Source: Bryobacterales bacterium (GTDB lineage Bacteria > Acidobacteriota > Terriglobia > Bryobacterales > UBA6623). Taken from it: DNA of 64,000 bases. Where the stretch lies: NCBI GenBank assembly GCA_028819575.1, contig JAPPLB010000002.1:1-64000 (forward strand), written 5' to 3'. This document shows, one piece after another, positions 1 to 62,557 of this stretch. Made by a program: the position numbers and the translations under genes. Each line of letters begins with the position of its first letter. Position 1 is the stretch's first letter. A model generated the notes under the pieces. It had not been told where the DNA came from. It searched no databases and saw only the letters and a list, made by a program, of their open reading frames with translations.

Positions 1-192
1 ACCACATGGCGAGGCGAAGTGCGTGAGAGGGCCGTCAGGACTAGGCGCAAGCCGGGCGGAGGAAAAAGGCGCGAGCCGCTTGGCGCGCGCAGGCGTACTT
101 GAACAGTACGTTGAGCACGGCAAGCAAGCGCAACGAAGTCCTGGCGGTCGTATCGCGTGCTTCGACCGTCGGGTGTTGAGAAATGCAGGCTA
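1..192 (+). repeat. TIR element copy 1 (left end cut by window); one 24-bp unit
   Basis: Near identical to 41202-41410 and 11767-11974; ends ...gtcgggtgttgagaaatgcaggcta. Confidence 0.9.
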
Positions 193-790
193 TAGCAACC
201 GTAAGCTGCGCCCAACGGTTTTTCACGAAACACGAGACACGAATCACGAAACACGGGGTTTTTGGTACTGAAGCCCTTCAGTCTTTTTTCCGGTCGGGGG
301 ACGGTATAGGTTGAGAGTGATGACGCCATTGCTGGGAACGAAAAACCCATCCGCGCCCGTCGGGGACAAGTCGGGTGGGGAGAGAAGAGCCGCCCGAGCG
401 CTTCTTTCCTGCTCGTCGTGGCGCGGCATGGGGCGGCAATGGCGCGGCATTGGCGGCATGGGGCGCGCCGAGCCGCTGGCCGAGCAACATCCGCACCAGC
501 AACAGGGCCATTCGGGTTTTCACGGGTCACGAGAAACGAGTCAAGAGACACGAAACGCGGCCTTCGACGGCCGTTCGAGTCGCCATGGGTGCGGAAGGGT
601 CACATCACGAAAAACCGCCGCCCGGTCGCTGCTTCTCTGCGCGTTGTGGCGCGACATGGGGCGGCAATGGCGCGGCATGGGCGGCATGGGCCGCCCCAAG
701 CAACTGTCCGCACACCATCCGCACCGGCAACAGGGCCATTCGGGTTTTCACGAAACACGAATCACGGCTTTTTTTCGAATCACGGCCTTT
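193..790 (+). repeat. Composite ~600 bp repeat, copy A (heptamer array, palindromic hairpin, two 228-bp-spaced subunits)
   Basis: Collinear with 18800-19423; shared blocks include ggtactgaagcccttcagtctttttt, gttgagagtgatgacgcc, gccgcccgg...ggcgcggcatgggcggcatggggcgc. Confidence 0.85.
266..288 (+). terminator. Palindromic hairpin ACTGAAGCCCTTCAGT + T-run
   Basis: Perfect 16-nt palindrome followed by CTTTTTT; recurs at 18658, 18899 and inverted at 56312. Confidence 0.5.
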
Positions 791-1220: not shown

Positions 1221-1260
1221 TCGCATGCTTCGGCGGTAGGGTAGTGAGAAATGCAGGTTA
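1221..1260 (+). repeat. Right-end remnant of TIR element
   Basis: tcgcatgcttcggcggtagggtagtgagaaatgcaggtta versus tcgcgtgcttcgaccgtcgggtggtgagaaatgcaggcta. Confidence 0.75.
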
Positions 1261-3502: not shown

Positions 3503-4939
3503 GTGACCTTCGACGACTTCGCCTGCGTTCAATCTCGCCGGCGCTTCCTGCAAAGCGTTACCGCCGGAGTGAGTACGGCTGCCCTGGCGCATTTGCTGGG
3601 CGTCGAAGGTCGCACGGCCGCAACCGGCCTGCCCAATACCGATCCGATGGCCCCCAGGGCGCCGCATTACGAGCCCAGGGCGAAGAGCGTCATCTTGCTC
3701 TACATGTCGGGAGGCGTCAGCCAGCTCGACGCCTTCGACCCCAAACCGGGACTGCGAAAGTGGCACGGCAAGCCGCTTCCGCCCTCGATGACCAAGGACC
3801 TCAAGCTCGCCTTCATCAAGCCGAACGCCAAGATCATGGCCAGCAACGCGCGCTTCGGCAGGCACGGCCAAAGCGGCATGGAGTTCTCCGGGCTGGTCCC
3901 CAATCTGGCTGCCTGCGCCGACGACATCTGCATGATTCGCTCGATGAACACCGAGGCGTTCAATCACGATCCCGGCGTGCTGCTGTTGACCACCGGCCAT
4001 ACGCAGTTCGGCCGGCCTTCCATGGGGGCTTGGGCGACCTACGGACTGGGCAGCGAGTCACAGGATCTGCCGGGCTTCGTCGTGATGGGTTCGGGCAATG
4101 GCCCCAACGGCGGCTCGAACATCTGGGGCAACGGGTTCCTGCCCTCTTCTTATCAGGGAACGCGTTTCCGCACGACCGGCGAACCCATTCTCTATCTGTC
4201 GAATCACGACGGTGTGAGCAGCGAGTTGCAGCGGGCGCGGCTGGATGCGATCCGCCGGCTCAACCGGAAGCGTTTTCAAGACACCGGCGACCTCGAAATC
4301 GCGGCTCGCATCAACTCCTACGAGCTGGCGTTCCGCATGCAAGCGGCGGCTCCCGAGTTGCTCGACTTCTCGAACGAACCCGAGTACATCCTCGATTCCT
4401 ATGGTGTCAACAAGGAGCCGACGCACACCTATGCCACGAACTGCCTGCTGGCGCGGCGCATGGTCGAGCGCGGCGTGCGATTCGTCATGTTGACGCACGG
4501 TAATTGGGACGCGCACAAGGAAATCGACAAGAACCATGGCGAGAACTTCGCTATCGTCGACCGTCCGACGGCGGCGCTCGTCAAAGATCTCAAGCAGCGC
4601 GGGTTGCTCGACAGTACGCTCGTCATCTGGAGCAGCGAGTTCGGCCGTACTCCCATGATTCAACTCGACCGCGACGATGAAGCAGCGGGCCGCGACCACC
4701 ACCCCGATTGCTACAGTCTTTGGCTGGCCGGCGGCGGGACCAAGCCGGGCGTAGTCGTCGGTGAGACCGACGACATCGGACTCAAGACGGTCAAGGATCA
4801 AGTCCACGTCCACGATCTGCAGGCGACGATCCTGCACTGCCTCGGGTTTGATCACGAGCGGCTCACCTACCGGCACATGGGACGCGACTTCCGCTTGACG
4901 GACGTGGGAGGAAAGGTAGTCGACAAGCTATTGGCCTGA
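3503..4939 (+). CDS. DUF1501 protein (Tat-like leader)
   Basis: SRRRFLQSVTAG leader, YMSGGVSQLDAFDPKPGL, SSEFGRTPM, GRDHHPDCYSLWLAGGG; GTG start chosen by comparison with 7898 (MTFDDFA). Confidence 0.93.
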   Translation: MTFDDFACVQSRRRFLQSVTAGVSTAALAHLLGVEGRTAATGLPNTDPMAPRAPHYEPRAKSVILLYMSGGVSQLDAFDPKPGLRKWHGKPLPPSMTKDLKLAFIKPNAKIMASNARFGRHGQSGMEFSGLVPNLAACADDICMIRSMNTEAFNHDPGVLLLTTGHTQFGRPSMGAWATYGLGSESQDLPGFVVMGSGNGPNGGSNIWGNGFLPSSYQGTRFRTTGEPILYLSNHDGVSSELQRARLDAIRRLNRKRFQDTGDLEIAARINSYELAFRMQAAAPELLDFSNEPEYILDSYGVNKEPTHTYATNCLLARRMVERGVRFVMLTHGNWDAHKEIDKNHGENFAIVDRPTAALVKDLKQRGLLDSTLVIWSSEFGRTPMIQLDRDDEAAGRDHHPDCYSLWLAGGGTKPGVVVGETDDIGLKTVKDQVHVHDLQATILHCLGFDHERLTYRHMGRDFRLTDVGGKVVDKLLA

Positions 4940-4946
4940 AACATCT

Positions 4947-5131
4947 CTAGCCTGCATGTCTCACCATGTGGCGAGGCGAAGTGCGTGAGAGGGTCGCCAG
5001 GACGAGGCGCGAGCCGCTTGGCGCGCGCAGGTGTACTTTGATAGTACATTGAGCACGGTAAGCAAGCGCAACGAAGTCATGGCGGTCCTACCGCGTGCTT
5101 CGGACGTCAGGTGGTGAGATATGTAGGCTCG
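4947..5131 (+). repeat. TIR element copy 2, short form (no 24-bp unit)
   Basis: ctagcctgcatgtctcaccat...gtggtgagatatgtaggctcg; 185 bp, begins 7 bp after the DUF1501 stop codon. Confidence 0.88.
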
Positions 5132-5235
5132 CGGCGTTGACACTGGTGCGGTCCGCACGCGGGCGAAGGAAAGACTGACAACGAAAAACAAAAAACTAGA
5201 AACTAGAAACAAAAAACTGACTACTGAAAACTAAC

Positions 5236-11766: not shown

Positions 11767-11974
11767 CTAGCCCGCATTTCTCACCACGCGGCGAGGCGAA
11801 GTGGGTGAGAGGGCCGCCAGGACGAGGCGCAAGCCGGGCGGAGGAAAAAGGCGCGAGCCGCTTGGTGCGCGCAGGCGTACTTGACCGTACATCGAGCACG
11901 GCAAGCAAGCGCAACGAAGTCCTGGCGGTCGTATCGCGTGCTTCGACCGTCGGGTGGTGAGAAATGCAGGCTAG
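11767..11974 (+). repeat. TIR element copy 3 (one 24-bp unit)
   Basis: ctagcccgcatttctcaccac...gtggtgagaaatgcaggctag. Confidence 0.92.
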
Positions 11975-12845: not shown

Positions 12846-13030
12846 CTGGCCTGCATATCTCACCACGCGGCGAGGCGAAGTGGGTGAGAGGGCCGTCAGG
12901 GCGAGGCGCGCGCCGCTTGGCGCGCGCAGGCGTACTTGAACCGTACGTTGAGCACGGCAAGCAAGCGCAACGAAGTCCTGGCGGTCGTATCGCGTGCTTC
13001 GACCGTCGGGTGGTGAGAAATGCAGGCTAA
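12846..13030 (+). repeat. TIR element copy 4, short form; overlaps start of next CDS
   Basis: ctggcctgcatatctcaccac...gtggtgagaaatgcaggcta. Confidence 0.92.
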
Positions 13031-18505: not shown

Positions 18506-18573
18506 AGCCGGCATGTCTCCCCGCGTGGCGAGGCGAAGTGCGTAAGAGGGCCGTCAGAAAGAGGCGCGAGCCG
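18506..18573 (+). repeat. Left-end remnant of TIR element fused to a heptamer-array leader
   Basis: gccggcatgtctccccgcgtggcgaggcgaagtgcgtaagagggccgtcagaaagaggcgcgagccg then ccggcaacacggccttta. Confidence 0.75.
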
Positions 18574-18657
18574 TCCACGCCGGCAACACGGCCTTTATGG
18601 TTTTTTCACGAGACACGAAACACGGCTTTTTCCGTGGCCCGTTTGGTACCTGTTGGT

Positions 18658-18681
18658 ACTGAAGCCCTTCAGTCTTTTTTT
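18658..18681 (+). terminator. Palindromic hairpin ACTGAAGCCCTTCAGT + T-run
   Basis: Same module as 266-288. Confidence 0.5.
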
Positions 18682-18799
18682 CGGCCGCGCCGGCATAGCA
18701 TGAGCAGAGAAGAGCTGTTTCTCATGTCCCGTGAGGCCTGATCCTTGACGCAAACGAAAGCAATGAAAAAGGTTTACCGGCCCGCCGGCGTTTCCCGGT

Positions 18800-19423
18800 A
18801 GAGCAATCGCAAGCCGCGGCCAACGGTTTTTCACGAGACACGAAACACGAATCACGGCCTTTTCGAGCCACGGCTTTGTCGAATCGTTGCCTCTTGGTAC
18901 TGAAGGGCTTCAGTCTTTTTTTCGGTCGGGGGCCGGTTTATGTTGAGAGTGATGACGCCGTTGTTGGGAACGAAAACCCCATCCGCGCTCGTCGGGGCCA
19001 AGTCGGGTGGGGACACAAGAGCCGCCCGGTCGCTGCTTTCCTGCGTGTTGTGGCGCGGCATCGGGCGGCTATGGCGCGGCATGGGCGGCATGGGGCGCCC
19101 CGAGCCGCTGTCCGCGCACCATCCGCGCCAGCAACAGGGCCTTTCGGGTTTTCACGGGTCACGAGAAACGAGTCAAGAGACACGAAACGCGGCCTTTGAC
19201 AGCCGTTCGGGTCGCCATGGGAGCGCAAGAGTCGCATCACGAAAAACCGCCGCCCGGTCGCTGCTTCCCTGCGCGTTGTGGCGCGGCATGGGGCGGCTAT
19301 GGTGCGGCATGGGCGGCATGGGGCGCCCCGAGCCACTGTCCGCGGCACCATCCTCACCAGTAGCAGGGCCTTTTGGGTTTTCACGAAACACGAAACACGA
19401 AACACGAATCACGGCTTTTATGC
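18800..19423 (+). repeat. Composite ~600 bp repeat, copy B
   Basis: Collinear with 193-790, same 228-bp internal offset (19021 to 19249). Confidence 0.85.
18899..18922 (+). terminator. Palindromic hairpin ACTGAAGGGCTTCAGT + T-run
   Basis: Same module as 266-288 with the two central bases swapped. Confidence 0.5.
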
Positions 19424-41201: not shown

Positions 41202-41410
41202 CTAGCCTGCATTTCTCACCACGTTGCGAGGCGAAGGGGGTGAGAGGACCGTCAGGACTAGGCGCAAGCCGGGCGGAGGAAAAAGGCGCGAGCCGCTTGG
41301 CGCGCGCAGGCGTACTTGAACAGTACGTTGAGCACGGCAAGCAAACGCAACGAAGTCATGGCGGTCGTATCGCGTGCTTCGACCGTCGGGTGGTGAGAAA
41401 TGCAGGCTAG
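41202..41410 (+). repeat. TIR element copy 5 (reference copy, 209 bp, 21-bp perfect TIRs)
   Basis: CTAGCCTGCATTTCTCACCAC...GTGGTGAGAAATGCAGGCTAG exact inverted repeats. Confidence 0.95.
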
Positions 41411-43085
41411 CCATTCCAGGCGGCAGTTTCTCTCTCTGGGTGCGGGGCTTGGTTTATCCCCGTTGTTCTCGCCGCTTTGTGCATCCACACCGTCCTTCGA
41501 GGAGATTCCCGCCTCGGCGAGTGGGATCTCATTCGTACACGAAAACGCGATGTCGCCTGAACATTACCTGCCGGAGACGGTCGGGCCGGGATGTGCGTTC
41601 ATCGACTACGACAATGACGGCTGGATCGATCTCTATCTGGTCAACAGCGGCGCGTGTGACTTTTATTCGCCACGGCAGCCGTTGCGTAATGCGCTCTACA
41701 GAAACAATCGTGACGGGACATTCACAGACGTTACCGATGCAGCCGGTGTCGGTGCTGGCACATTCGGGATGGGAGCGGCTGTTGGTGATTATGATAACGA
41801 CGGCTATCCGGATCTGCTGGTGACCGCCTACGGCCGCTGCATCCTTTACCAGAACAACGGAGATGGAACTTTTACTGACGTCACCACAAAGGCCGGCATT
41901 GTGTCGCCGGATTGGTCGACGAGTGCCGTCTGGTTCGATTATGACAACGACGGCCTGCTCGACCTTTTCCTATGCAGCTTTGTCGAGTTCCGCGCCGATA
42001 CACACATCAATTGCGGGACCAACAAGGCGGGCAAGCGCTATTACTGCATACCGCGCGTATTCAAGCCGACACCGAGCTTGCTCTACCGAAATAACGGTGA
42101 CGGCACCTTCACTCTCGTCAGCAAGGGGACCGACATCGAAGCGGCGATGGGCAAGGCGCTCGGCGCCGTGGCGACCGACATCAATAACGATGGGTTGATG
42201 GATCTGTTTGTCGCTAACGACACGGTGCAGAATTTTCTGTTCGTCAACCGCGGGAGAGGTGTATGGGAAGAGAGCGGCATGTTCGCCGAAGTGGCGTTCA
42301 GCGCTGACGGGAAAGCCCGTTCCGGCATGGGAGTCGATGCCGCCGACTTCGACCAGGACGGCCACCAGGATCTTTTTGTGGCCAACATCGACCAGGAGAT
42401 GTTCTCCCTCTATCGCAACCGAGGAGACGAGTCTTTCCAGGACGACGCGCGCGTGCATGGCATCTCCCAGGCGACCCGACTGCTGAGCGGATGGGGACTT
42501 AAGTTTTTTGACTACGACAACGATGGCGAGCTTGATTTATTGCTTGCTAATGGTCACCCGGATGACATGATCGGCCAATACTCGCTGAAGGTCACCTACA
42601 AGGAACCCTTGCTATTGTTTCACCACGAAAACGGCAAGTTGCGAGAAGTCAGCGCCCAAGCAGGCCCGGTTTTTCAGAAGAATTTTTCTGCACGCGGGCT
42701 CGCCGTAGGCGATTACGATAACGACGGCGCGGTCGACGTGCTGATCGCCAACAATGGAGAGGCTCCTCTTCTGTTGCGTAACCGAGCTGCGAGGGGGAAC
42801 CATTGGGTGGGATTGAAGCTGGAAGGTGTCCACTGCAACCGCGATGCCATTGGGGCGCGAATCACGTGGTCTTGCAGCGGCAAGAAGAGGTCACGGCTCC
42901 GTACCGGGGGCGGCAGCTATCTATCGTCCCATGACCCTCGTGAGGTGCTGGGTCTCGGCGCCGCAACAAAGCTTGACTGGATCGAGATTGCCTGGCCGCG
43001 TCCCAGCGAAACGGTGGAAAGACTATCCGCCGTGCCGATCGACCGGTACGTGCACGTGATCGAGGGTAAGGGTATCCAGAACTAA
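41400..43085 (+). CDS. FG-GAP/VCBS + ASPIC/UnbV (CRTAC1-like) protein with Tat-like leader
   Basis: [44 protein letters not shown]-like tail [24 protein letters not shown]. Confidence 0.92.
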
Positions 43086-56160: not shown

Positions 56161-56311
56161 CGTGTTCCGAGTCTCGTGTCTCGTGAAAACCCTTACAAGC
56201 CGTGTTGCCGGCACAGGGGGCGGCAGCCGCCACAGCGAGCGCCGCGGGGACGGGAAGTCAAACTTGATGATTTCCGCCTCGTTGTCCTCATGCTATGCCG
56301 TCTGGGACGGG

Positions 56312-56333
56312 AAAAAGACTGAAGGGCTTCAGT
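56312..56333 (-). terminator. Palindromic hairpin + T-run (minus orientation)
   Basis: gaaaaagactgaagggcttcagt = inverted copy of 266-288 module. Confidence 0.45.
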
Positions 56334-56555
56334 ACCAAAAGGTCATGTTTCGTGATTCGTGTCTCGTGACTCATGACCCGCCCAGGCTTCGCCGCACCGG
56401 TTGAGGAGAAGACAGGGTCGCGGCATGCCGTCCTCGCAGAGGACGATTCGGTGAGCGGACTCTTTGCCGTGATTACTGCAAGAAGCCGCACCCGCGTTAG
56501 AATTGCTATGGAGGATGGGCGGAAGCATCGCGCGTTCCCGGACCACTACGGCCTG

Positions 56556-62328: not shown

Positions 62329-62557
62329 TAGCCAGCATTTCTCACCACCCGACGGTCGAAGCACACGATAAAAAGGCCGTGATTCGTGTCTCGTGTCTCG
62401 TGATTCGTGAAAAACCTTAAAGTCCGTGTTGCTCGAGCCAAGCGGCTTGCGCCTTTTTCCACCGCCCGGCTCGCGCCTTTTTCCTCCGCTCGGCTTGCGC
62501 TTCGTCCTGACGGCCCTCTCACGCACTTTGCCTCGCCATGTGGTGAGAAATGCAAGG
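62329..62557 (-). repeat. TIR element copy 6, inverted and chimeric (two 24-bp units; centre replaced by heptamer array)
   Basis: tagccagcatttctcaccacccgacggtcgaagcac...gtggtgagaaatgc; interior cgtgattcgtgtctcgtgtctcgtgattcgtgaaaaacc. Confidence 0.88.

Follow-up and report, generated by a model that had tools for sequence, protein, structure and literature searches.

A mobile 185/209-bp element with IS1380-type terminal repeats and a covarying hairpin body in Bryobacterales

Copies of the element in the window and across the genome

The window, by which we mean the whole 64,000-nt stretch of DNA analyzed, lies on contig C199 of a 5.37-Mb Bryobacterales genome in 200 contigs. It carries a short dispersed element, one copy of which occupies 41202..41410 on the plus strand (209 bp; blastn, 100%). 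There, CTAG duplications at 41202-41205 and 41407-41410 enclose terminal inverted repeats (TIRs) at 41206-41222 and 41390-41406. The ends of this copy are exact reverse complements over 21 nt (39.2 bits), as the first-pass annotation had described, and blastn recovered every other copy and remnant that it had listed. Two copies are 185 bp long, at 12846..13030 (plus strand, 84%; flanks CTGG on the left and CTAA on the right) and 4947..5131 (plus strand, 77%; CTAG and CTCG). Copies of the 209-bp class also lie at 11767..11974 (plus strand, 93%; flanks CTAG/CTAG) and at 1..193 (plus strand, 96%; right flank CTAT), the latter interrupted by the contig start. An inverted, chimeric copy is found on the minus strand at 62329..62557 (73%), with an ACGA-type repeat tract substituting for part of its core. 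Remnants on the plus strand retain the left arm alone (18506..18573) or the right TIR and arm alone (1221..1260).

Comparison of 41202-41410 with 4947-5131 shows that the 209- and 185-bp classes differ by a 24-bp module (GCGCAAGCCGGGCGGAGGAAAAAG); variants of 198 to 208 nt are also present in other families, in genomes G613, G683, G687, and G694. The window holds other short repeats as well. Degenerate ACGARWC arrays (CACGAATCACGAGACACGAA...) form a second dispersed, intergenic repeat at 224-1176, 18607-19396, 56174-56357, and 62377-62391, and one such tract takes the place of some of the 62329 copy's core. Another repeat type, AAACTAGAAACTAGAAACAAAAAACT, adjoins the 4947 copy at window position 5187 and is missing together with it in the sister species G002. 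An ATG in the right TIR of the 41202 copy (window 41400) is in frame with a 561-aa ORF at 41400-43085, and 13 gene starts were called at the corresponding TIR position in a 1.21-Mb sample of the genome; insertions of the element may supply start codons to genes.

A whole-genome search with the 17-nt TIR, allowing up to three mismatches, yielded 1,303 matches (638 + 665), against 10 (3 + 7) for the reversed pattern, which bears out the high abundance predicted from the window. The 1.21-Mb sample held 420 TIRs forming 143 closed pairs of less than 400 bp. Their outer TIR-to-TIR lengths peaked at 176–177 and 200–201 bp, or 185 and 209 bp with the 4-bp flanks, and the two sizes reported earlier are therefore genuine classes. 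Scaling from this sample, we estimate about 440 closed copies in the genome; counting one copy for every two TIRs raises the figure to at most about 650. The intergenic, MITE-like placement first described from the window also holds: only 7 of 142 oriented copies overlapped a gene predicted by a simple gene finder, though 84% of the sample is coding. Overall, the element has the features of a miniature inverted-repeat transposable element (MITE), being short and dispersed in many copies, with TIRs of 17–21 nt and no transposase gene. A search of the 1.21 Mb for an autonomous form, as a longer TIR pair of 400–3,500 bp, found none. Plasmids, phages, E. coli, and two viral-contig patterns gave no match to the element, and a weak match in G025 covered part of the core alone.

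Target sites, empty sites, and resident IS1380 elements

The 4-mers flanking the element conform to YTAR (CTAG, TTAG, CTAA, TTAA). Direct repeats of 4 bp flanked 44 of 143 copies, compared with a shuffled mean of 18.1 and maximum of 25; 2-bp direct repeats flanked none. The empty-site comparison proposed in the first-pass annotation was made against G002, in which empty sites hold a single 4-mer: in nine filled/empty pairs, the gap was exactly −4. One of them belongs to the 41202 copy: G002 is cleanly empty there, with one CTAG, and its allele reads GATTCCATCTAGCCATTCC. The empty site of the 12846 copy has CTAA, and the 4947 copy is missing from G002, where window positions 4939 and 5235 abut. 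Where synteny allowed the site to be read, the sister species lacked most of the copies. These data demonstrate that the element is mobile and that it inserts with a 4-bp YTAR duplication.

The flank pairs were unequal in about two-thirds of copies, the 12846 and 4947 copies being examples in the window. When filled and empty alleles of the nine pairs were compared, mismatches affected 29% of sites in the 4-bp flanks, against 12.5% over the adjoining 16 bp. Mutation alone was rejected as the cause, since flank mismatches were no fewer in copies less than 2% from the consensus than in older copies. Transfer of donor overhangs, in the manner of piggyBac, was also rejected, as the nearest copies shared flanks no more than random pairs did; the almost uniformly perfect duplications of IS1380 copies in Singulisphaera and Thauera also count against it. 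Flank imperfection is more frequent than age accounts for.

We then considered which enzyme could act on the ends. The first-pass annotation had seen no transposase, which is correct within the window but does not extend to the genome. There, a PF13701 search returned two intact 492-aa ORFs (E = 2.9e-148 and 7.9e-147), each inside an IS1380-family element of about 1.72 kb, and these elements carry a transposase and matching TIRs, for which the annotation had suggested a search. Their ends read CCTGCATTTCTCACCAG or CCCGCATTTCTCACCAG, with CCCGGATATCTCACCAG at the opposite end, and they are flanked by CTAA/CTAA and CTAG/CTAG. The terminal repeat common to these insertion sequences and the element is CC[TC]GCATTTCTCACCAG; at locus L119, the left IS1380 end matches the element's TIR at 16 of 17 positions, with YTAR flanks. 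One resident IS1380 has inserted into a 209-type copy, at that copy's internal CTAG, and in G002, the best IS1380 match is carried on contig C41. A similar end type and YTAR target characterize IS1380 relatives in Planctomycetota, Pseudomonadota, Myxococcota, and Acidobacteriota, with YTAR-[CT]C[CT]G[CG]AT-type ends common to those of Singulisphaera, Nannocystis, Thauera, and Acidobacteria. As resident and related IS1380 share both ends and target with the element, we assign it to the IS1380 type and not to IS630/mariner. No likeness between the element's interior and IS1380 was found past the TIR, so there is no visible sign that it arose from IS1380 by internal deletion.

IS1380 is probably the enzyme source that mobilizes the element. 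Elsewhere in the phylum the association varies: PF13701 was present in 8 of 22 carrier genomes, and the element's ends agreed with those of the resident IS1380 in G662 and, loosely, in G482 but disagreed in G599 and G613. Where the association fails, the transposase may have been lost, or another may be at work. An alternative end type (TTATTCATGA in place of TCTCACCA) occurs on the same core in G610, G466, G634, G482, and G515. In these relatives both ends were switched together, and PF13701 was not matched in most of their genomes.

A conserved hairpin and the strand that is kept

Over its full length, the 185-nt consensus is predicted to form a single hairpin (RNA z = −11.5), and no shuffled sequence was equally stable; both strands give very stable folds. 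A class-level search retrieved full-length relatives at 72–90% identity, and in a 16-copy alignment, 32 of 61 pairs showed compensatory changes. We extended this to 42 copies of 182–187 nt, in which distant copies are on average 65% identical. Here, both sides changed in 52 of 59 base pairs, and all five helices covaried. Pairing was kept in 93.8% of cells, compared with 72.7% in shuffled and at most 43% in slid controls; both-side changes numbered 483 against 157 shuffled, and the covariation score was 0.580 against 0.205 shuffled and at most 0.115 slid. Compensatory changes therefore surpass both kinds of control, as expected of a structured RNA family. Covariation in the TIR helix is obligatory, because both ends face one transposase, but the internal helices 2 to 5 covary without any such reason. 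Some 20 unpaired columns, in asymmetric internal loops, are at least 90% conserved. Rfam gave no family at gathering score in the window and none at E ≤ 5 for the element.

To describe the spread of this fold, we used two covariance models. Model R1 gave full-length matches of 182–187 nt in 57 of 396 Acidobacteriota genomes, across many families. Model R2, trained on copies from Acidobacteriota alone, was run against 27 genomes, 18 of which gave no match. Full-length matches were obtained in a Pseudomonadales genome (1.8e-36) and a Chlamydiae genome (1.2e-33; 49 rows, about 30 sites), and weaker ones in genomes of Rhodocyclaceae (2.4e-13), Pirellulales (2e-7), and Planctomycetota. All of these matches in other phyla come from draft assemblies, most of them MAGs. 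Judged by these comparisons, the whole body of about 185 bp is a conserved predicted hairpin common to several phyla, a feature that lay outside the view of the first-pass annotation.

The two strands are not equivalent. In the union of both strands' folds over the 42 copies, G-U exceeded A-C in 42 pair columns and the reverse held in 9; among pairs predicted from both strands, the counts were 21 and 4. In 40 of 42 copies, it was the forward strand that folded more stably. Counts over copies from the window's genome leaned the same way (64:25 and 65:18), as did those from G002 (35:21), cells not being independent in these counts. The direction agrees at every level. A DNA cruciform, or correction of one arm by the other, should treat G-T and A-C alike, and the G-U bias therefore points to selection on one single strand. 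That strand is most likely RNA; a folded single strand of DNA is less likely. A mobile structured RNA, or else single-stranded DNA, with a putative function would be consistent with these features.

Interpretation and relation to known systems

We favor, at a probability of roughly 0.7, a non-autonomous element that borrows IS1380 transposases and whose body is kept as an old, widespread hairpin family. IS1380-family DDE transposases would recognize the 17-nt inverted ends and insert the element at YTAR sites with a 4-bp duplication. Its length, full-length hairpin, and loop bases would be maintained even as the sequence drifts, with the TIRs changing between IS1380 end types. One single strand would be under selection; RNA copied from the element and folded as a stable hairpin is the likeliest candidate, made either as its own small RNA or as part of flanking transcripts. 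The conserved fold suggests that the hairpin may be of use to the element or to its host. A bolder version, which we offer tentatively and hold at less than even odds, is a mobile non-coding RNA family: old, of fixed length (~185 nt), crossing phyla with the TIRs of any available IS1380, and kept because the RNA would act for the element or its host.

Several alternatives account for part of these data. If the element were simply a selfish IS1380 MITE, with nothing but its ends of consequence, ends and target sites would suffice for its mobility, and its palindrome would be kept not by selection but by template switching, which copies arm onto arm and can change both at once. Such copying predicts a perfected palindrome, yet bulges with conserved unpaired bases persist over about 50–90% identity; length is constant at 182–187 nt, and no strand preference would be expected, against the 42 to 9 columns observed. 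We regard this explanation as unlikely. The first-pass annotation had suggested an IS630/mariner-like MITE with a TA target. TA is indeed the center of YTAR, but that proposal does not survive the absence of 2-bp repeats (0 of 143, against 44 of 143 at 4 bp), the single 4-bp copy retained in empty sites, and ends that are those of IS1380, which together leave it very improbable. Movement of a REP/BIME element by a RAYT (Y1) transposase is scarcely credible either: the element is palindromic, abundant, and intergenic, with TAG at its end, but no Y1 transposase (PF01797) was matched in G000 or G002, each with hundreds of copies, and TIRs with a target duplication are DDE hallmarks.

Genomic context bears on a further possibility, that copies are domesticated 3′-end hairpins serving as transcription terminators or mRNA stabilizers behind stop codons. 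This would suit the very stable folds on both strands, the rarity of overlap with genes in a largely coding sample, and the 39 copies that begin exactly on a neighboring gene's stop codon. Y-TAR, however, is both target and stop, so that this position follows at least partly from target choice and needs no selection. Orientation at stop codons is balanced, with 20 copies along the gene and 19 against it, and between tandem genes there is a weak co-directional bias (35 vs 19, p = 0.04); together these do not favor a simple mRNA element. With most copies at readable syntenic sites also missing from the sister species, we consider such domestication quite unlikely.

Among known systems, the closest is the IS1380 family itself (PF13701, DDE_Tnp_1_4; for example, IS1247 and ISEcp1). 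The resident 1.72-kb members share the element's terminal repeats and 4-bp YTAR duplication, whereas the element has no transposase gene and its body is unrelated past the TIR. IS1380 is a group linked to eukaryotic piggyBac, and it would gain here a natural substrate in high copy number, whose recorded insertion sites run into the hundreds. For IS1247, a 5-bp duplication is listed (PMC3281130). Our search of the open-access literature, with subscription papers and ISfinder outside its scope, found no IS1380-derived MITE of this kind, and IS1380 and Acidobacteria both go unmentioned in a 2024 review of prokaryotic MITEs.

Correia elements of Neisseria and ERIC of enterobacteria are intergenic, palindromic hairpin MITEs of 100–200 bp in 120–700 copies, whose transcripts are cleaved by RNase III or E (PMC10969869). 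They resemble the element in being palindromic, intergenic, and high-copy but differ in sequence, ends, and target and are known within related taxa, whereas the element spans phyla at a fixed length with measured covariation. MITEPye1 of Paracoccus yeei is likewise short, with IS-like TIRs, direct repeats, and a long stem-loop fold, but it derives from IS1182, has IS1182 ends, and is present in one to three copies in one species (PMC11578231). The GTAG/CGTC REP repeats are also palindromes, for which G-T pairing was remarked upon as a hint of transcription (PMC3733652). Unlike the element, they are 20–40 bp long, the GTAG type is RAYT-linked, and they have no comparable TIR pair or target duplication. 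Bacterial MITEs are usually regarded as decayed, lineage-bound IS leftovers in which the ends alone matter. The element reverses this expectation, in that its ends vary and its folded body appears to be kept across phyla, and the strand bias opens the idea of a functional RNA, or of a folded single DNA strand, to direct testing.
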